Source: Entrophospora sp. SA101 (lineage: Eukaryota > Glomeromycota > Glomeromycetes > Entrophosporales > Entrophosporaceae). From it: 64,000 nucleotides of DNA. The translations under genes were made by a program, and so were the position numbers. The stretch is from positions 71,847 to 135,846 of the forward strand of contig CAUDNR010000136.1 of the NCBI GenBank assembly GCA_958430865.1, read 5' to 3'. Below, in pieces: positions 6,626 through 55,389 of the stretch (position 1 is its first letter; each line of letters begins with the position of its first letter). The notes below the pieces were generated by a model. That model ran no database searches, was not told the origin of the DNA, and worked only from the letters and a program-made list of their open reading frames with translations.

Positions 6626-7977
6626 TTATAAAATCCATGTTTTTTTAATAATTCAATTAGCTTATTGTCTTCATCTTCATAACCCTCTATAGATATTTTT
6701 ATAGGAATAACTTCCCAATTCTTTAGTTTTTTTAGGCCATTATCGGAAACCTTAAAAATCTCTTCAAATAAAAATTTATGTAATTTTTTCTGCCCTATCG
6801 TTATCAGAGCATCAATGACCTTGTCAAAATCACAATTATTGTCTTCCATGAAATTTTTTAATGAAATTGTCTCCAGCTCGACACAATTCTCAAACAATAG
6901 AGTTAAGGAAGCTTGGTGATCATGATGGTACGGGATTGATAAATATTTTAATCTCTGACAGGCTCCTGCAATTTCGGAGATAAATTTTCCAAATGAACGT
7001 TTGTCTGGGTTCCCGTGAATCATAATAGTTTTTAGGTTTAAACTGTTTTGTTTAATAAACTGAATAAAATCATCTATATCACCTTCAGCATTAAACTGAA
7101 AATGAAGTTCTTCAAGTTGAGAAAATTTAGCACGTTTGAAATAACTCATTGAAATATTCCCATCATCATAATAATTAAAAAGTTCTAACTTTCTCATGTT
7201 TGGGAAAATTGCCCCTTTTCCCATCATTTCATTTATAGCATGGACGTAGCCTTTGAATTCGGTTAACAAGTCTGACTTGTCCAATAATGCCTTCAAAGTA
7301 TTTGCAGATAATGTGCAACCTTTTTCTACCAGAAGATGCAATATTCTTAATTTAGATTGCCTATTTATCAGTCTATCTAATCCATCATCAGCCTCATCAT
7401 TTTTTGTTATTTCGAGGCATAATTTATGGATTTCACTAACAATTCCAACAAACTTTTTCAATAATTCTGGAGAATCTGTATTCTTATAATGCAATATTTT
7501 AACATCTTCAAAATGGAACTCTTCATTGTTATGGAAATCATTTGGCAAATAAGGGTTTAATCCACTCAAAAAAATTTCTTCGATCCTACTAGATTTTAAT
7601 ACTTGAACCACCAAATCTTTAATTAATAAATCGGCATATTGCCGTTTTCTTCCAATATTTTTTTCTTTTATTAAATCCTGGAAAATTTCTGCAAAAATGG
7701 ACAATTTTTTGACGAACATTAGGTAATTCTCAAAAGGTTGATTTTCTAGCGATTGGAAGTTTAATCGAATATTATTTTGTAAAAGAGTGTTGCGGGCAAA
7801 GTAGTTTATTAATACTTTGAGATTGTATTTCGATACAAGTGGATCAATCCATAACAACATCATACAGAGCCTATGCCAATATCTATTTACAAAACTACAA
7901 GAAATAAGGTCTACTTTTTCCAAGAATTTAAGAGTTTCAAGTAATAACTCGTTTGGTAAATGGTTCATTTCAAACAT
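6613..7977 (-). CDS. F-box protein, array copy 3, full length
   Basis: 454 residues, ATG at 7977. F-box at residues 4-48 (HLPNELLLETLKFL, LISCSFVNRYW, LWIDPLVS). The rest resembles the other copies and continues past their truncation point with YHHDHQASLTLLFENCVELE and ETISLKNFMEDNN, an LRR-like end. It is the best reference for the family in this window. Likely an SCF adaptor; substrate unknown. A TATA box lies about 36 bases upstream. A decayed cyclin stands head to head with it at 8501. Confidence 0.85.
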   Translation of the reverse strand: MFEMNHLPNELLLETLKFLEKVDLISCSFVNRYWHRLCMMLLWIDPLVSKYNLKVLINYFARNTLLQNNIRLNFQSLENQPFENYLMFVKKLSIFAEIFQDLIKEKNIGRKRQYADLLIKDLVVQVLKSSRIEEIFLSGLNPYLPNDFHNNEEFHFEDVKILHYKNTDSPELLKKFVGIVSEIHKLCLEITKNDEADDGLDRLINRQSKLRILHLLVEKGCTLSANTLKALLDKSDLLTEFKGYVHAINEMMGKGAIFPNMRKLELFNYYDDGNISMSYFKRAKFSQLEELHFQFNAEGDIDDFIQFIKQNSLNLKTIMIHGNPDKRSFGKFISEIAGACQRLKYLSIPYHHDHQASLTLLFENCVELETISLKNFMEDNNCDFDKVIDALITIGQKKLHKFLFEEIFKVSDNGLKKLKNWEVIPIKISIEGYEDEDNKLIELLKKHGFYNTYI

Positions 7978-21522: not shown

Positions 21523-21744
21523 TTGCAAATGCCATTAAAAAAAGAATATGCTTTAAAACAATTGGCTTCAAAAAATTTTTTGGAAAGACAATTCCAGATA
21601 AAAGAATTAGAAGGTAATAAACTGGATCTTTGTATTAAAACACAATTGATGGTTTTTAAATCAAATGAGGAGGATGAAACAGAAAGAGATACTCTGTATA
21701 TAGGAAACCTCTTAATGACTGCCAAAACTCTGCTGAACCTCTAA
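21523..21744 (+). CDS. Unrecognised short charged open frame
   Basis: 73 codons, beginning MPLKKEYALKQLASKNFLER and running through FKSNEEDETERDTLYIGNLL. Amino-acid make-up is protein-like (few Phe/Ile homopolymers, mixed charges). Just upstream another frame reads MNQVANAIKKRICFKTIG, so this may be the end of a frameshifted relic. No family recognised. Confidence 0.25.
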   Translation: MQMPLKKEYALKQLASKNFLERQFQIKELEGNKLDLCIKTQLMVFKSNEEDETERDTLYIGNLLMTAKTLLNL

Positions 21745-21893
21745 TAAACAATTAGTGTATAACAATATTTTGTATTCAAAAAAATTTATTATAATTTTAA
21801 GTACCTTTTGCTGGAAACTTTCTATATAAAGTAATTAAATTATAACTAATGAAAAGAAAATATAATATTAATTTAAAGTTGTATTTATTATTT

Positions 21894-45615: not shown

Positions 45616-45856
45616 TATGGCACGCCAACCATGACAAAAGTCTACATTATTTGACATTTAAAATGAGGGTGGCTTTATTTTAAATATTTTCATCCCTGTT
45701 TTAAATGATTTAAAATTTATTTAAAATGTAAAATTTTTTATTTTAAATGTCACAAATATTACTTAAAATGGCGTCACATGAATTGGATCACTTTTTCAAA
45801 AAAAAATTACAAATTTAGCAATTAACATTTTAAACGAAAAACCTTTCATTTTAAAT
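45616..45856 (+). repeat. Left terminal inverted repeat
   Basis: Inverse partner of 51966-52206. Contains GTCTACATTATTTGACATTT and ATGGCGTCACATGAATTGGA in both copies. Differences are a handful of substitutions and one A/C change in an A run. Confidence 0.9.
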
Positions 45857-46240
45857 GATATTTTCTTTATTTACCTGTTTTACTTCATTCTAACTAAACA
45901 TAGTTAGACGTTATTTTAAATAATAATTTATTTATTTTAAATAGTTAAATTATTATTTTAAATAATTGCTAATTTATTTTAAATAGTTAAATTATTATTT
46001 TAAATAATTGTTAATTTATTTTAAAATACAAAGTGTTATTTTAAAATAACTGTTAATTTGTTTTAAAGTAGTTAAGTGTTTATTTTAAGTAATTAAATGT
46101 TATTTTAAATATTTTTTTTTCTTTTAAACATTTTTAAATTATTTAAAATGTTTAAATTTCATTTAAAATGTTCCAATTCATTTAAAACATTCCAATTCAT
46201 TTAAAATGTTTTGATTTCAAAATGTTTCGATTTTATGAAA
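45857..46240. repeat. Subterminal array of TTTTAAAT words
   Basis: More than 20 occurrences of TTTTAAAT or ATTTAAAA within 380 bases, often as TTATTTTAAATAATT or CATTTAAAATGTT, directly inside the left TIR. The same words occur in the TIRs. Such dense subterminal motifs commonly bind transposase; that role here is inference. The right end lacks an array of this size. Confidence 0.7.
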
Positions 46241-46420
46241 ATTTACATTACTTATTAATTAGGAAAATGAGTCAATTAATACCTTTATTAGGAAATGAAA
46301 GGAGGTAATTAAGGTTCACGGATAATCCAATATTTTTTTCCACGTTAAAAAAAAATAAAGTTTTTTTTTCGCGCTAAAAAAACAGTTTTTTTAAATTAAT
46401 AAGTATTTTTAAAAAAGCAA

Positions 46421-49400
46421 ATGAGTAAACCAAGACGGTGTTATTATTTTTATCCTGATTCTAATAAACATTGTGAATGCAGAAAACTTAAAACTATTGA
46501 AGATGAAGAAACATGTAAAATATGCAATCATGATGAATCATGGCATGAACAGGTATTGTTTTGTAGTATTATGTCATTTTTTATTAAGTTGTTTCAGTGT
46601 CATATATTTACACATTAACATATGTATATTTTAAGTTATGTGAAAATGATCTCAATCATACTCCACAAACACAAAAGGCGAATCAAATTGCTAACAATAA
46701 AGATATTGAGAATTTTTTAGTCACCACTCAAAATATTAGATCTAATCTCAAAATAAATCTTCAAAGTCAATTAATGAATAATAGTTCACAAAAATTACAA
46801 AAAAATAAAGAATATAAATTCACATTCTTTTTTTTACCAAAAAAAAATAATAATAAAATACCAAAAGGAAAGAAGTAAGTACAATAAACTATGTACTGTC
46901 AATTGGTCAATTAATTACTTAAAATTAAAATTTTCAACTGCTAACTTTGCAAATTTTTTTTCTATATTAGTAGGGAATCTATGCATGCTGCTGGATTTGT
47001 GAAAGAAATTGGTTTTCGAAAAAAAGACAATGTGAATAACAAAATTATAGAAGCATTTCCATTTAGTAAAGAATCAGGATATAATATTTACAAAGTAGTA
47101 AATAAAAAGGATCTGGTTTTATGTCACCCAGAAAAAAATATAGAACAACTAAAAAAGTAAGTTAAATGATATTTGATTTGATCTTAATTTGTTAATTTAT
47201 AATAAATGTTTAATATTTTTTAAACATTATAAAAGGATTGCGACTGGTAGAAAATATATATATTTAGCACCAAAAAAACATGATCTAATATCAGAGGATT
47301 TATTTTCTGATGATAATGGTGATGAAAGTGTAAACAACAGTGAAGCTGATGAAGCTGATGAAGCCAATGTGCATGATGATGAAGTCAGACATATTGAAAA
47401 TCCAACACAAAATAATAATTCAAGCATTTCTGTTATTCAAAAAAATCATACAACACTCTCCAACAACACTGTCAATAGTAAGGTTGCGGGAGAAACTCCT
47501 CCAGAAATCAATCGACAGAGTTTCGACAGGTTACACATTAATTGTTTATTAGAGTTTCGGCAGAGTTTCGCATTTGGGGTTTTCGCCAATCATCAGAGTT
47601 TCGACAGGTTACACATTAATTGTTCATTAGAGTTTCGACAGAGTTTCGACAGTCATTAAGAGGTTTCGCCCACAACCTTAGTCAATAGTTATCACTCCAT
47701 CACAAATGATACATTATCCTCAATTAACTCCTCAACAAATTATCCTACATACTCGATTATTGACCACTCTAATAGTTCAAATGTTGATTACCCCTGTTCT
47801 ACAAGATCTAATATTGGTTCAAATGATTATTCTACAAGAACAAACACTGTTATCAATATTGATGATAATGATGATGATAATGAAAAAAATATCAATGAAG
47901 ATCAAGGTATTGATTTATTGCTCCTTAATAATAAGAACTATATTATAATTTTTGTTAATGATGAAAATTATTTTGAATGTCAAAATTAGGAGTTATTCTT
48001 CATAATGAGCTCAAAAAATATTATAATGCTGGAAAAAAAGAAACTAGGATTGAAATTGATACTTATGATTTAATAAGTGAAACATTATTTCATTGGGCCT
48101 GTACTGCAACCAAGATAGATATTTTTCAAAATCCGTATTTCATTGTGCCATCAGAAGAGTAAGTTTTAAAATATTTAGTTTAATAATTTTATTTCATGAT
48201 TTGTTTATACTCAACAAACTTGAATATATAGTCTAACCATTGTTTTAATGAAATTGCATTTAAAATTCATCGTTAATGAAACTAACATTTTTATGTAACA
48301 AAAATTTAAAAAATTCGAATTTAATGTTAATTAAATTTATTATTTATTTAAAAGTGTTATAGATACTGGTGGAGGTTTTAGGGATGCTACTCATAAATTA
48401 TGGGAGGATTTAAGGAATAAAGGATTAAAGAACAATTCTTTAGAATTGATTGGAAATTACATATTTTTGGCAGAAAATCAAACTTCAATTGGTGATAAAT
48501 TTGGTTTTATTTTGGGGAAATTGTTAATTTGGTGCCTTTTGCATGGTGGTGCCTGGCCATCTTGGCTCCATCCTATGCATTTACATTATATTTGTGATAA
48601 GAATATTAATTATATTGAAATCTTTAAAGAATTAAATCCAAATATATACAATTGCATCAAAAAATTAGAATCAGGTGATAACTCACATTTTAAAGATGTT
48701 ATTGATTATGCTAAACATTACAATGAGAATGTAAGTTAATTCATAATAAATCTTTCTAATTATCCATTCCCATTAAGAACTCAAATATTTATTACACATA
48801 TTTAGAGAATTTTTCAAATCAATCGGAAGGATATTGCAAACCATATTTCAAAATTTGTAATATTGGATAGTCGAAAAAATGTATTAGATGACCTGAAGAA
48901 AGGATTTAATTATTTTGATCAAATCCAGGTATTTAAGAATTTTAAATATAATTATTTTAATTTTAATGATCTATATATTAATTAATTATATTTTTGATGT
49001 AGACATTGAGAAACATGAATTTTACAAAAATATTATCTGCTTTATATATTAAATTAGAAGGTAAAATGGTCTGGTGCCAATTTGATCATGTATATAATGA
49101 AAAAATCTTTAAAAACGAAAAGGCCAAAAGTGAATTATATACTTTGTTAAAAAATTGGGTTTTAAATCAAAATGAAACAACACTTGATAAATTTTTAAAG
49201 TTTATAACTGGTTGTAATCGTTTTCCTGTCAAAGAAAAAATCAAAGTAAATATTTTTCATTATTTTATTGATTTAATATTAACCTCTATCAAACTAAATA
49301 TCCTATATTGTTATAAAAAGGTCCACTGGAGGGTTAGTAATTCAAAAAAAATGTTAGGACGTATTCCAATGGCAAACACTTGTTCCTGTGTGTTGATTCT

Positions 49401-49971
49401 ATGTGAAAATTTTGAATTATCCGAGGGTGATAAAAAAGCTTTTGAAGAAAGTTTGGTGATTGCATGTGAAAATAATGAAGGATTTTCAGAATCCAGCATA
49501 ATAAAAATTAATTATGATTACCCAATTTTTCAAGGAATGAATCCATCAACACCTCAAAATCAAAACCATCAACCTTTATATACAAGCAATAATGATAATT
49601 TACAATCCAATTTTTCTCATCAACAACAACTACTTAATACATTTGACAATTCACAATCATCAGCTAATTCTAATTTATGTTTTCAACAATCATGCAATAT
49701 CTTTGATAATCCACAATATAATGTGTCTCATCAACAATTTTTTCCAAATGTTAACTTAAATTTTTCACAACAACCATCCAACAACTTTGTTGAACCACAG
49801 TTTAATGTTACTCAACCTTTAGATTACAACTCATTCTCTAGGCTCCAAAATTACAATACTTACAGTTATAATCCTTTAAATCTAACTAATAACCGTCAAT
49901 TCAATCAGTTTATTAATCAAACTTCAGACAATTTTAACAACAATAAAAAAAGAAAAAAGAATAACAATTAA
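46421..49971 (+). CDS. HECT E3 ubiquitin ligase-like protein carried by the transposon
   Basis: Ten exons: 46421-46552, 46636-46874, 46971-47156, 47236-47477, 47682-47906, 47990-48158, 48355-48730, 48806-48928, 49003-49245, 49321-49971. All phases agree, 861 residues. Residues 7-44 hold Cys/His pairs (CYYFYPDSNKHCECRK, CKICNHDESWHE), a probable zinc module. The middle is acidic and Ser/Asn-rich. HECT domain from about 345: VIDTGGGFRDATHKLWEDL, FILGKLLIWCLLHGGAWPSW, FLKFITGCNRFPV, and the active-site region MLGRIPMANTCSCVL with Cys near 666. HECT ligases form a thioester with ubiquitin. A Gln/Asn-rich tail of about 150 residues follows, unusual because HECT normally ends the protein. The intron 47478-47681 is a MITE; unspliced it brings an in-frame TAA. 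Confidence 0.8.
47479..47680. mobile_element. 202-base MITE in the HECT gene, intron-like
   Basis: Ends TAAGGTTGCGGGAGAAACTC and, inverted, TAAGGTTGTGGGCGAAACCT. Flanked by a perfect 8-base duplication GTCAATAG (47471-47478 and 47681-47688). Inside are two direct copies of CAGAGTTTCGACAGGTTACA plus flank. Insertion after a G makes GTAAGG at the 5' side and CCTTAG at the 3' side. Removing 47478-47681 (204 bases) leaves the host frame intact with two extra codons; leaving it in gives a stop at 47657-47659. 8-base duplication points to hAT-type mobilisation. Confidence 0.85.
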
Positions 49972-50203
49972 AATAAATTTATAAGATATGGTTGCTGCTA
50001 TTTTTTAAAATTGGAAACTGTTTATTTTAAAATTACTATTTTTAGAGTGATAATTCTATTTTTTTTTTTATATATATATATATAAAAAAATATAAAGTTT
50101 AAAATATTTTTTTTCTGATTCATTTCATTAAAATTTTAGTTCAATGCAATAAATTTAGTTAACCATTTAAGTCTTACAAATTTAAAATAAAATAAAATAT
50201 AAA

Positions 50204-51643
50204 CTAAACATATCTTCTATTCAATATTTCTTTAACTTTAGCTATTACATCTAAATAAACATTTATTCCATAATTATTATCTTCTCTATCTATACCCACT
50301 GAATTTAATAATTCATGATATTCATTTTGGTTTAAAACATTTCTAGGATCTTCAACAACCACAGCAGCAGCATTATCATCTGAATTTGATGGTATAGGCC
50401 CTTCCCAGTCAATCCCATACAGTTCATTGACATTAAAATCTTCCATTCCTCTATATCCACATTCAATCATTCCAGATGTAAATAATTGTAATGGAGTCTG
50501 AAAATGTTCAGTACGAATTGAATGATTATTCCACCCATCTACAAATAATTTAAGGCTTTTATTAATACGATTCAAATAAGTTAAATGCAAACAAAATAAA
50601 TACACATTATTATCAATATCTAATTCAAAATTTTCTTCTAAATATAGAAAAATAGTTTTATATATCTTTAAAACACATCGATTTATATCACCCCATAACC
50701 TTTCAATGCGTTGATTATGAACAGAGCGTCCTGCTATAAAACTACCACGTCCATACCCTCTATATCTTTCCATAAATTGCTTTACTAAAGCATTTTCACC
50801 ACCATGATCTGCCCTTACTCTACTTGGAATACCAAATTGTTCTATTCCTTTTTGAAATTGTGTTAAAACAGTAATGGATTTATTGTTACTACTGCAGTTA
50901 CAAAAAGTGATCATTCGTGAATAACCATCTATTCCTGCATGCACAACAAATTTCCACCTAATTAGCTTGTGATTTCCATCAATATGCCAAAGTGCATTTG
51001 GGCCAGCAACTTGATAAACACGCCTTGGAATTATATTGGACCATCTTTGTACCATTCCCCAAGCATCAACACGATTTAATGACTCACGTAGCCTTTGACG
51101 ATGAACACGTATTCCTCTTGAACGTAATACACCTGCTATTATTATCTGTCCAGAAAATGGTTGTTCTCTTTGTATGTTTCTGATTTCGTTATCTAAATCA
51201 TCATTTGATATATTAGTGTATGCTAAATCATCAGGCAAATTCAATTCAATTCTTCTTCTTAAAATTGTTCTATAAGAAACACCAAATATATCTGCAATTC
51301 GTATCCATGTATGTCCTTCTTGTCGCAATATTCTAATAATATTTTCATTAATCAATAGTTTTGGTCTTCCTCCATTTTCTTCTCTATATAAAAGAGGTTG
51401 TGATGCCTCATTTTGTAAAAGATTGATCCTAGACTCAATCATTTCTTTTAAATTTGATAATTGAATTAATCTATGGTCCACATTATATTGCAAACCCAAA
51501 TGGACATACATTGAATGCAAAGTTTCAATTTTTTCCAACTGTAATTCCAATGAATTTAAATCTTCACCCTCATGGAGAATACGGGAAGCTATTCTAATTA
51601 TTTCTTCAGCAAAATTTTCAAAATTTCTTTGTTGTTCATTCAT
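50204..51643 (-). CDS. DDE transposase with IS3-like integrase core
   Basis: 479 residues from ATG at 51643, single exon. Residues 90-135: helix-turn-helix (GGRPKLLINENIIRILRQEG, FGVSYRTILRRR). Residues 150-195: IS3-type HTH (QPFSGQIIIAGVLRSRGIRV, HRQRLRESL). Integrase core from about 215: NALWHIDGNHKLIRWKFVVH with Asp222, SRVRADHGGENALVKQF with Asp279, and HNQRIERLWGD with Glu314, giving 34 residues between the second and third acids. All three catalytic acids are present and the frame is intact, so it may be active. Resembles eukaryotic IS3EU-type transposases (recognition only). Convergent with the HECT gene, 232 bases apart. Confidence 0.88.
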   Translation of the reverse strand: MNEQQRNFENFAEEIIRIASRILHEGEDLNSLELQLEKIETLHSMYVHLGLQYNVDHRLIQLSNLKEMIESRINLLQNEASQPLLYREENGGRPKLLINENIIRILRQEGHTWIRIADIFGVSYRTILRRRIELNLPDDLAYTNISNDDLDNEIRNIQREQPFSGQIIIAGVLRSRGIRVHRQRLRESLNRVDAWGMVQRWSNIIPRRVYQVAGPNALWHIDGNHKLIRWKFVVHAGIDGYSRMITFCNCSSNNKSITVLTQFQKGIEQFGIPSRVRADHGGENALVKQFMERYRGYGRGSFIAGRSVHNQRIERLWGDINRCVLKIYKTIFLYLEENFELDIDNNVYLFCLHLTYLNRINKSLKLFVDGWNNHSIRTEHFQTPLQLFTSGMIECGYRGMEDFNVNELYGIDWEGPIPSNSDDNAAAVVVEDPRNVLNQNEYHELLNSVGIDREDNNYGINVYLDVIAKVKEILNRRYV

Positions 51644-51965
51644 TTTAATATTAATAGGCAATAAAAAATAATTAAGGTGTAAAATTGTTTTAGTATAATG
51701 AAATATAGCTTAAATCACTGCAAAATTAAAATCTAGTTTTATTATGTTTGCAATATTTTTTAACTGGCTACAAAATTAAAAGACAATTCAACAACTTAAT
51801 GATTCAATTAATATAACAAAGCAATTAATATGGAAAGATGTATTCTTTTATTGGGAAGTGCAATATCTGTAAAATAAGAAATATAATTTCTTTATTAATA
51901 TTTTTTTTTCAATTAGAAATCGATTAATAAATTTGGAAAAATTCATGAATTTTTTTAGTATTTCA

Positions 51966-52206
51966 ATTTAAAATGAAAGGTTTTTCGTTTAAAATGTTAA
52001 TTGCTAAATTTGTAATGTTTTTTTGAAAAAGTGATCCAATTCATGTGACGCCATTTTAAGTAATATTTGTGACATTTAAGATAAAAAATTTTACATTTTA
52101 AATAAATTTTAAATCATTTAAAACAGGGATAAAAATATTTAAAATAAAGCCACCCTCATTTTAAATGTCAAATAATGTAGACTTTTGTCATGGTTGGCGC
52201 ACCATA
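51966..52206 (-). repeat. Right terminal inverted repeat
   Basis: Inverse partner of 45616-45856. Its outer end reads CATGGTTGGCGCACCATA. 51644-51965 between it and the transposase start is AT-rich leader without a recognised feature. Confidence 0.9.
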
Positions 52207-52509
52207 ACATAAGCCCTCCTTACTTCTAAAAATATATTTCGAAAATTAAATATTTCCTAAACAAGATTTTTTCAACCCCCTTCGGTATATACAAGTTGGA
52301 CAAGATTTCGTGAAAATATAAATACAATTAATTTTTAATTCGCAATAATTAATAAATAATTTTTTTCATTAAATTTTTTTAATTTTGTTAATGATATAAG
52401 GGAAAAAAATTATTTATTTTTACAAAAAAAAACAAACGCATATAATATACCATTGAACTTTATTCGATTTTTATCTATTATTATTATTATTATTTTACCA
52501 AAGGACAAA

Positions 52510-54737
52510 ATGAACAAAACTAGCACAAAAACATTGATAGCACTTTTAGTAGTTCTGATAAGTTTTATTTTCATTGTCGAGTTCACAAGTCCAATTCAAT
52601 CAATTAATATTGGACATTTACAAAAAAGACAAACTCCGGGTAATTATAATTATCTTTATTTTATATTACGCATTTGATTGATTCTAATTGATTTATTTAT
52701 TTAAGATTCAACACTTACTATCTAGATTGATTTTTAATTAATTAATTAAATAAATTATTTATTTTTGATTTAGCACCACCACCAGACAACCCACCACCAA
52801 AGGATAATCGTAATTATATATTTTTATTTGTTAACTTTTTTCGTTTTTGTTTTTAAAATAAAAAAAAATTGATGTTTATATATTTATTTTATAGCACCAC
52901 CACCACCAAAGGATAATCGTAATTACATATTTTATTTGTTAACTTTTTCGTTTTTGTTTTTAAAATCAAAAAAAAATGATGTTTATATATTTCTCTATTT
53001 ATTTTATAGCACCACCACCACCACCAAAGGATAATCGTAATTATATATTCTATTTGTTAACTTTTCGTTTTTGTTTTTTTGAATCAAAAAAAAAAAAGAT
53101 ATTTATATATTTCTTTATTTATTTTATAGCACCACCACCACCAAAGGATAATCGTAATTATATATTTTATTTGTTAACTTTTTACGTTTTTGTTTTTTGA
53201 ATCAAAAAATGATGTTTATATATTTATTTTATAGCACCACCACCACCAAAGGATAATCGTAATTATATATTTTATTTGTTAACTTTTTTCGTTTTTATTT
53301 TTAAATCAAAAAATGATTCTTATAAATATATCTCTTTATTTATTTTATAGCATCACCAGCACCTCGTAATTATTATTTGTTTATTCAGTTTTTTCGTCTT
53401 TATTTCTTGGATCAAAAAATGATGTTTTATTATTTATTTATTTCATAGAACCAACACCTGATGCAACACCCAACCCAAATCCATCACCACCTGCTCCAAG
53501 TGCACCACAAACACCAGCACCCAACCCAGATGCAACACCAACACCTGATCCAAATGCAACACCAACACCTGATCCAAATGCAACACCAACACCCGATCCA
53601 AATGCAACACCAACACCTAATCCAACACCTAGTCCAAATGCACCAGCACCCAACCCAAGTGCACCACCAACACCTGATCCAAATGCACCAACGTCTAATT
53701 CAACAACAACTGGTAAGTTTTAAGAAGGGAAATAGCACATATATATAAACAGAGTATATTGGTAGTTGTATCTCGAGATAGATAGATTTAGATTTCATTA
53801 AAAATATAATTATAACTATAAATATATACATTATAAATATATAGTTGTTAGTATTACTAGTGATACTACCACTAATACAGTTAGTCCAATTGTCGATAGC
53901 TCAGTTGTTACTAACTCAACTGGAACTAATGCTGATACAAATGCCGGTACACACACACATATATATGCTCAAAAGAGAATAAATTTGTTAAAATATATTA
54001 TTTATGATTTTATTATTTTTCTTTTTACAGGTCCTAGTTCTAGTCCTAACACTGGTGTTACTTCTATATCATCAACAGGTAGTCCTTTCATACAATTAAT
54101 TACACAATTAATATATTTATATTTATATTTATATTTATATTTACGTTTATATTAATTAGTTTCTCAATCTACTACTACGTCATATCCACCTGGACGAGAA
54201 CCATGCACAAAAGCTGATGATCCAAGATGTGAACGTAAAACAACAGAGTGAGTGATTTTTGTTTTTAAAAGAAAAATTCATTATTTTCCAACAAATTAAT
54301 TAAATTTATTGCAAAAAAAAAAAAAAATTAGCCCAACAGTGGTCAGCACAACAGAAGAGAATGAAATAATCACAGATCCACCAAAACCTACAAAAACCAC
54401 AACATCCCAATCCCAATTAGGCTCAAGCCAAAAAAAATCAACCATAACACAATTCAAAACATACACCACCACAGAAACATCATATTTCCCAGGATACACC
54501 ACTTATACATCTTCAACAGGGACGGATGGACAATTAACAACATATGCAACTTACATTCCACCAAGTACTGTTGTGGTGGTCAAGAAAGTTACCTCAGCAA
54601 CTGTAGAGGAAATTCAAGAAAGTAATCCTGTTTCAGCTGGACATCTTGATCTGGAACTCTCAATTTATAATTTATACAGCATCGCTACATCATTATTTGT
54701 TATTTCTGTGACAATGCTTTATTTAATCATTGCTTAA
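52510..54737 (+). CDS. Secreted Pro/Thr/Ser-rich surface protein, twelve exons
   Basis: Exons 52510-52639, 52774-52809, 52895-52918, 53010-53036, 53130-53153, 53235-53258, 53351-53365, 53449-53712, 53845-53946, 54031-54078, 54160-54247, 54332-54737. All junctions agree; 395 residues. Signal peptide or anchor at residues 5-30 (KTLIALLVVLISFIFIVEFT), then a Lys-Arg pair (LQKRQ) like a Kex2 site. Mini-exons encode PPPPKDN units. Exon 8 encodes (P)TPDPNAT repeats. The rest is Ser/Thr-rich with a two-Cys motif (CTKADDPRC) and ends in a hydrophobic helix (YSIATSLFVISVTMLYLIIA), a membrane or GPI-type tail. Probably a glycosylated cell-surface protein; role unknown. A truncated paralogue lies inverted at 55390-55751. 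Confidence 0.8.
52774..53365 (+). repeat. Tandem mini-exon/intron array
   Basis: Units of about 115 bases, each with TTTATTTTATAG acceptor, a 24- or 27-base exon (CACCACCACCACCAAAGGAT plus AATC), and a GTAATTATATATTTTATTTG intron start. Units at 52895, 53010, 53130 and 53235 are near-identical; the first (52774) is longer and the last (53351) is shortened to 15 bases. Every exon is a multiple of three and all introns are phase 1. Confidence 0.88.
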
Positions 54738-55389
54738 TTAAATAGTAGCATTAATTTCTGTAAAAAAAATAATTCATAGAATTAATGACTTGTAGCAATA
54801 TTATTTATTTGATAGTACATCCACTTCTGTGTTTGTATATCTAAAAATCACACGTGATATTTTTTAATATTTAATTTAATTATTAAAATACAAATAATAT
54901 TAGATTTGGTGTCTGTCTTCGTGACGATTCACTATAATTTTCTTATTGAAGTGTGGTTATAACTATTAAATGTTATTCTCAGGAACTAACAGCCACATGG
55001 TCTAATTTGACTAGGTATTTGTTTATTTAAATCATTTATTATTATCGTATCTGTTTACTATGTAATTAATCATTCAAAAATAACCAATAAAAAAATATAT
55101 TTCTGTCAAGATTGAAGATGATGATATTATTAGCAGCAATTATAAATTGCATCAAACGAATAAAGAAATAGATAATACTCATCAATGGTTTTGGATCCGA
55201 GTATTTTTCTTCTTCGATGCAATTCCTCTGGTGATTTTTTCATATATATTTTAGTTGAATTGAGCATGAGAATACCTTTGTCCTTATTCCAGTATTCATA
55301 ATGATTATGAAATACATTTGATACTATTGTTTTAAATTTGTGAAAATTAACAAAATTGGCAGATTGCAAAGTAATGATAATACTAGAAA
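54738..55389. other. Spacer with an unnamed repeated coding scrap
   Basis: Minus frame 55369-55130 (79 codons) reads FHNHYEYWNKDKGILMLNST, KIYMKKSPEELHRRRKILGS and KTIDEYYLFLYSFDAIYNC. Part of it (LHRRRKILGSKTIDE) recurs at 37840-37740. Amino-acid make-up is protein-like; possibly a transposon fragment. No family named. Confidence 0.4.

Follow-up and report, generated by a model that had tools for sequence, protein, structure and literature searches.

A 202-bp hAT-like MITE inserted in an exon of a HECT-domain gene in Entrophospora sp. SA101 is nested within a second, larger transposon. The reading we favour, with a probability of about 0.65, is that this young MITE received its intron-like ends by chance of the landing site and has not been selected as an intron. 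Judging by its sequence, the MITE could act as an intron; the sampled copies do not support the idea that its family is one of introners. The analysis covered a stretch of 64,000 nucleotides (the window) on contig C130, together with searches of the genome. Features of the MITE and of the interrupted gene are as follows.

46421..49971, + strand: HECT-domain gene, ten-exon model
46421-46552, 46636-46874, 46971-47156, 47236-47477 and 47682-47906, + strand: exons 1-5 of the HECT gene
47990-48158, 48355-48730, 48806-48928, 49003-49245 and 49321-49971, + strand: exons 6-10 of the HECT gene
47471..47478, + strand: left 8-bp target-site duplication GTCAATAG, whose terminal G completes a GT donor
47479..47680, + strand: hAT-like MITE, 202 bp, the commonest sequence among the copies compared (12/39 matches)
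47681..47688, + strand: right 8-bp target-site duplication GTCAATAG, whose initial G completes an AG acceptor
47478..47681, + strand: proposed intron GTAAGG...CCTTAG, 204 nt, predicted from sequence and reading frame
47478..47660, + strand: rival frame-restoring intron, 183 nt, with the same donor and the acceptor CATTAAG

The MITE is bounded by inverted arms of 18 nt (47479-47496 and 47663-47680, 89% complementary), its ends read TAAGGTTG with tips TAAGG/CCTTA, and the direct repeat GTCAATAG flanks it on both sides. The original prediction held that such tips, combined with an 8-base duplication starting and ending in G, create GTAAGG...CCTTAG, and both the tips and the duplication were confirmed in the sequence. 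Stops are present in all six frames of the element, which is thus non-coding. Short, multi-copy, and equipped with inverted ends and an 8-bp target-site duplication, it has the features of the MITE class. Elements of the hAT superfamily make 8-bp duplications and have tips and a target motif of this kind. The motif nTnnnnAn and the tip YARNG, which we take to be those of hAT elements, are matched here, the tip by TAAGG and the motif as a preference. From these features we infer a young, multi-copy, non-autonomous and hAT-like MITE. Elsewhere in the window, a partial relic of the MITE internal repeat, about 87% identical and devoid of ends, was observed at 21704-21763.

A genome search with the MITE gave 511 first-look candidates, of which 40 copies were scored, all 98-100% identical to the copy in the window. 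Searching again with a CpG-decayed variant returned further, slightly more diverged copies; 20 of the 21 new places were taken in, and C1403:22194 was left out. Merging copies with identical 25-base flanks reduced 63 copies to 53 distinct sites, which are a sample from the best-scored matches in the genome. A perfect 8-bp duplication was found at 41 of the 53, with a bias towards T at position 2 (24/41), A at position 7 (24/41; both in 15/41), G at position 1 (17/41) and C at position 8 (21/41). The 12 remaining sites, one of which is a 192-bp relative with 78% identity, lie outside the 82 strand-sites considered below. Across 39 matches compared, the copies differed mostly at CpG, by changes to TpG or CpA (C-to-T or G-to-A), a pattern suggestive of cytosine methylation in the MITE family. 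Among the other sequences with coding-like insertions are a piggyBac-type transposase and a frame encoding a hAT C-terminus.

The interrupted gene is itself part of a mobile element, the features of which are given here.

45616..52206, no strand: DNA transposon of 6,591 bp carrying the HECT and integrase genes, tips TATGG...CCATA
45616..45856, + strand: left 241-bp terminal inverted repeat of the large transposon
51966..52206, - strand: right 241-bp terminal inverted repeat, 98% complementary to the left one
50204..51661, - strand: integrase/transposase gene, PF24764 rva_4 (E 1.6e-82), convergent with the HECT gene
52207..52212, + strand: ACATAA, 6-bp duplication of the large transposon

The MITE had been said to interrupt a HECT gene, and this assignment held: the C-terminal part of the 861-aa protein, as a query of 315 aa, matched PF00632 HECT in Pfam with an E value of 2.2e-14. 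Used as a single query, the whole 861-aa protein gave no match in Pfam, and a protein database contained no homologs of it at E<=0.001. What the original prediction missed is that the HECT gene lies inside the 6.6-kb integrase transposon, so that the MITE insertion is a nested one and does not affect a conserved host gene. The possibility that this is an ordinary host gene was ruled out by the 241-bp inverted repeats, the rva_4 integrase (a frame of 485 aa) and the ACATAA duplication. The copy of the transposon on contig C1260 reads ACATAA-TATGG...CCATA-ACATAA, with the duplication on both sides, and the left flank of the window's copy differs, carrying no matching ACATAA. The combination of TA..TA tips and a 6-bp duplication, as in IS3EU/GingerRoot, was seen in one copy, that on C1260. 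We describe the large transposon as IS3EU/GingerRoot-like, its transposase having been classified by Pfam PF24764 rva_4. In the available part of PMC10045372, IS3EU/GingerRoot elements have TA..TA tips, a 6-bp duplication and an integrase-type transposase, all of which recur in the transposon at 45616-52206. The latter differs from the elements of that source by its 241-bp inverted repeats and its HECT gene cargo, and the word HECT is absent from the main text of PMC10045372.

The association of a HECT-domain gene with an integrase transposon is of interest in its own right. It recurs outside the window's transposon: HECT-like and rva_4 pieces are adjacent in C661/C394 and separated by about 2 kb in C2114. 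As a general rule it has evidence against it, HECT not being near every related integrase: among the matches listed, 6 of 10 rva_4 matches (C1, C1181 twice, C1615, C1526 and C1977) had no HECT match nearby. The HECT piece of C124 has no rva_4 beside it among the matches listed, and 3.3 kb around it are 99.97% identical to C2114. On contig C1199, four HECT-domain frames of 1155 aa and equal score (at 7287, 27499, 48037 and 75947) were observed 20-28 kb apart.

Between 45616 and 54328 the window and C1260 have the same sequence, including the MITE, and similarity continues to 54752; on the left, the match begins precisely at the transposon tip. The third copy of the transposon, also on C130, is partial: it starts at window position 49349 and does not include the MITE-bearing exon. 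No MITE-free site for the HECT exon was found among these copies, that on C1260 carrying the MITE and the partial one starting downstream of it. The presence of the 9.1-kb segment (the transposon and its downstream neighbour) on both C130 and C1260 is most simply explained by a later duplication, after the MITE insertion; C1260 may instead be an assembly duplicate or a second haplotype. The shared segment (45616-54752) extends 2.5 kb beyond the right tip, which would fit a movement of one end by itself. Downstream of the transposon, at 52770-53460, a proline-rich gene has small exons in tandem repeat (APPPPKDN-like, by eye), each with its own similar short intron, giving repeated exon-intron units.

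We then considered the proposed intron. Removal of the 204 bases 47478-47681 had been claimed to restore a ten-exon, 861-codon frame, and our recomputation agreed: all exons are in phase and yield 2586 nt, that is 861 codons and a stop. The claim that the retained MITE causes a stop was borne out as well, by one in-frame stop. The kept frame is no independent support for splicing, because both the full insertion (202 + 8 = 210 nt) and the proposed intron (202 + 2 = 204 = 3x68 nt) are multiples of three, a property inherent to the MITE family. Nor are the proposed exon ends unique, since the acceptor at 47660 also restores the frame with the same donor and a third, poorer donor/acceptor pair exists. 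The donor GTAAGG matches GTAAGT at 5/6 positions and is paired with an unremarkable TAG acceptor, so that splicing of the MITE at the HECT locus is possible. Its 3' side is doubtful. In 8/8 other introns of the HECT gene a YTAAY motif stands no more than 60 nt from the acceptor, but the proposed MITE intron has none there; the frequency of this motif in random 60-nt stretches of the window is 44%. Downstream of the branch-like TTAAT at 47616, the acceptor at 47660 follows after 41 nt and that at 47681 after about 62 nt, with several AGs before the latter. Splicing to the first of these AGs, at 47630, would by our reading leave in place the frame that runs into the stop.

Whether the family behaves as an introner can be judged from its other insertions. 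We called an insertion coding-like when at least 100 stop-free codons run across the emptied MITE site; the chance level of this call was 32/740 in trials with mononucleotide-shuffled flanks of 37 sites. Read on both strands, the 41 perfect sites gave G at position 1 in 38/82 strand-sites, G at position 8 in 11/82 and both in 5/82. Since G is common at position 1 and C is favoured at position 8, the target bias aids the acceptor and opposes the donor. The MITE had been claimed to behave like an introner, and a lack of enrichment of its family at in-frame GT-AG sites was named as part of what would speak against this. For the family, such behaviour was not supported, and no enrichment was seen: in the 53-site sample, a duplication of the form G...G in the gene direction was found in 1 of 18 coding-like insertions, the HECT copy itself, against 5/82 strand-sites overall, about the chance level. 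The splice test covered 16 of the 18 (L025 and L083, outside it, lack G at position 8 in the gene direction); 13 of the 16 had no G at position 8 and hence no GTAAGG donor. Frame-restoring GT-AG pairs near the borders, with a donor matching GTAAGT at no fewer than 5/6 positions, were obtained in 2/16, the HECT copy and an insertion on contig C1095, and lowering the threshold to 4/6 added two more (L006 and L021). In both the HECT copy and C1095, the predicted splice sites come from the MITE or are recruited from the duplication. When the query carried a G at each end, both Gs were covered in 3 of the 40 matches listed (the HECT insertion twice, on C130 and C1260, and a copy on C1403), and the open frame at the C1403 copy runs the opposite way. 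Three sites with C...C duplications and near-identical flanks (L071, L073 and L081) were considered as cases spliceable on the other strand and rejected, their flanks being, by eye, a non-coding tandem repeat. Among the best-scored copies, then, many insertions in genes in spliceable form were not found (1/18 for G...G, 2/16 for a restored frame). Of the proposal that the MITE ends are preadapted for splicing, the fit of the tips to splice sites stands, whereas the choice of target is unfavourable and no enrichment accompanies it.

The C1095 insertion offers a neater and better test case than the HECT copy. This MITE (L004, C1095:8925-9126) lies in a multi-copy coiled-coil gene family, with 83 matches in the genome for relatives of the C1095 gene. 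Splicing at GAG/GTAAGG ... CGGAG/G would remove exactly 210 bases and regain the uninterrupted site, so it could be a scarless intron of 210 nt. A comparison of MITE copies with empty sites, proposed in the original prediction, succeeded here: in three of four close paralogs (C2085, C170 and C1348) the site is MITE-free with a single 8-mer, which has one changed base in one paralog. The fourth paralog diverges in the region of the insertion. These uninterrupted paralogs settle the boundaries of the MITE.

Several readings of the HECT insertion must be weighed against the one we favour. Simple insertional damage, in which the MITE stays in the transcript or is spliced wrongly (to 47630, for instance) and this copy of the HECT cargo is dead, has in our estimation an even chance of being true. 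The retained MITE would add 59 residues and then the in-frame stop, the first AG after TTAAT (47630) is not among the frame-restoring acceptors, the gene is the cargo of a transposon, and the partial transposon copy on C130 has a stop in the last HECT exon, with codon differences of which 6 are non-synonymous and 4 synonymous. Against such damage stand the strong donor, which two frame-restoring introns can use, and the intact remainder of the 861-codon frame. At the other extreme, an introner proper would be spliced efficiently at 47478/47681, add Ile-Asn to the HECT protein and belong to a family that generates introns. The GTAAGG...CCTTAG ends, the open frame and the second, scarless candidate with empty paralogs on C1095 are consistent with this, and the two extra residues would sit in an Asn/Ser-rich stretch; the lack of G...G enrichment in coding insertions (1/18), the C8 bias that opposes donors, the 13/16 insertions without a GTAAGG donor and the weak branch region followed by several AGs make it unlikely.

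Use of the acceptor at 47660 instead, removing 183 nt and adding nine codons, would also leave the frame open, and it would place TTAAT 41 nt upstream of the acceptor, a more usual distance for a branch motif. Its acceptor is AAG, however, and several AGs precede it, and we hold this outcome to be quite improbable. An ordinary old intron that mimics a transposon would account for the GT-AG ends and the intron-like length; this idea was rejected, and its chance is negligible, for the element occupies 53 distinct sites, of which 41 each have a perfect duplication of their own, and 23 of these 41 lie outside any open frame of 100 codons. A broader proposal is that the family is an incipient fungal DNA-transposon introner, in which copies with duplications ending in G (HECT and C1095) are really spliced, that of C1095 without a scar; we consider this rather a long shot.

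In the reading we favour, that of a nested young MITE with intron-like ends by chance, a non-autonomous hAT-like element, moved in trans by a transposase, would have entered an exon of the HECT gene aboard the IS3EU/GingerRoot-like transposon. TAAGG would represent a 5' splice site minus its first G and CCTTA a 3' splice site minus its last G, and the duplication GTCAATAG would have happened to give both missing Gs. The 9.1-kb segment with the transposon, its neighbour and the MITE would then have been duplicated (C130 and C1260), an order of events that we infer. Splicing, if any, would be a by-product, probably partial or imprecise, under no special selection as an intron; unspliced, the HECT product would presumably end early, ahead of the HECT domain.

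If the MITE is spliced, this would be a nearly time-zero birth of an intron from a hAT-like element with a built-in control, as nearly the same 202 bp recur at dozens of sites with different splice-completing bases, one of these sites having empty paralogs as well. Splicing of the HECT or the C1095 copy would reveal a hAT route to fungal introns with inverted ends and duplications, and a true incipient introner would have been caught so early that empty paralogs persist. If it is not spliced, the case is a warning that suitable tips, a G...G duplication and a length that is a multiple of three can by coincidence give a transposon the look of an introner, and that the interrupted 'gene' may itself be transposon cargo.

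Precedents exist for transposons that act as introns. In maize, the hAT elements Ds and Ds1 are said, by the titles of reports from Dennis in 1988, Wessler in 1991 and Giroux in 1994 (cited in PMC3260210), to be spliced from exons. Ds makes 8-bp duplications. As with the MITE, these are short non-autonomous hAT elements in an exon, capable of acting as introns; splicing is shown there by the titles, whereas it is possible for the MITE, and in the MITE both splice sites straddle the border between element and duplication, unlike in Ds/Ds1. Introners of Aureococcus with 8-bp duplications were reportedly described by Huff in 2016. The available part of PMC9860276 likewise gives an Aureococcus introner family DNA-transposon features and 8-bp duplications, and it describes introner splice sites drawn from the element and/or the duplication, whole codons added after splicing, enrichment of introners in genes in 161 of 175 genomes, and fungal (ascomycete) introners without inverted ends and duplications (PMC9860276). 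The MITE resembles the introners of that source in its transposon features, its 8-bp duplications, its splice sites at the tip/duplication border and the whole codons that splicing would add; it differs in that introners are many spliced copies, whereas one or two of 16-18 coding insertions of the MITE are suitable, as predicted from their sequences. No account of introners in Rhizophagus was found in the literature searched, PMC6142364 having both words in its references alone. PMC8476143, in its available part, reports no introner in Mucoromycota and describes recently gained fungal introns that contain the remains of DNA transposons (Kolobok-H, PIF/Harbinger and TcMar-Fot1). Transposon sequence in a new fungal intron is what those cases would share with the MITE; as described in that part, they are not hAT and represent old, degenerated episodes, whereas the MITE insertion is very young.
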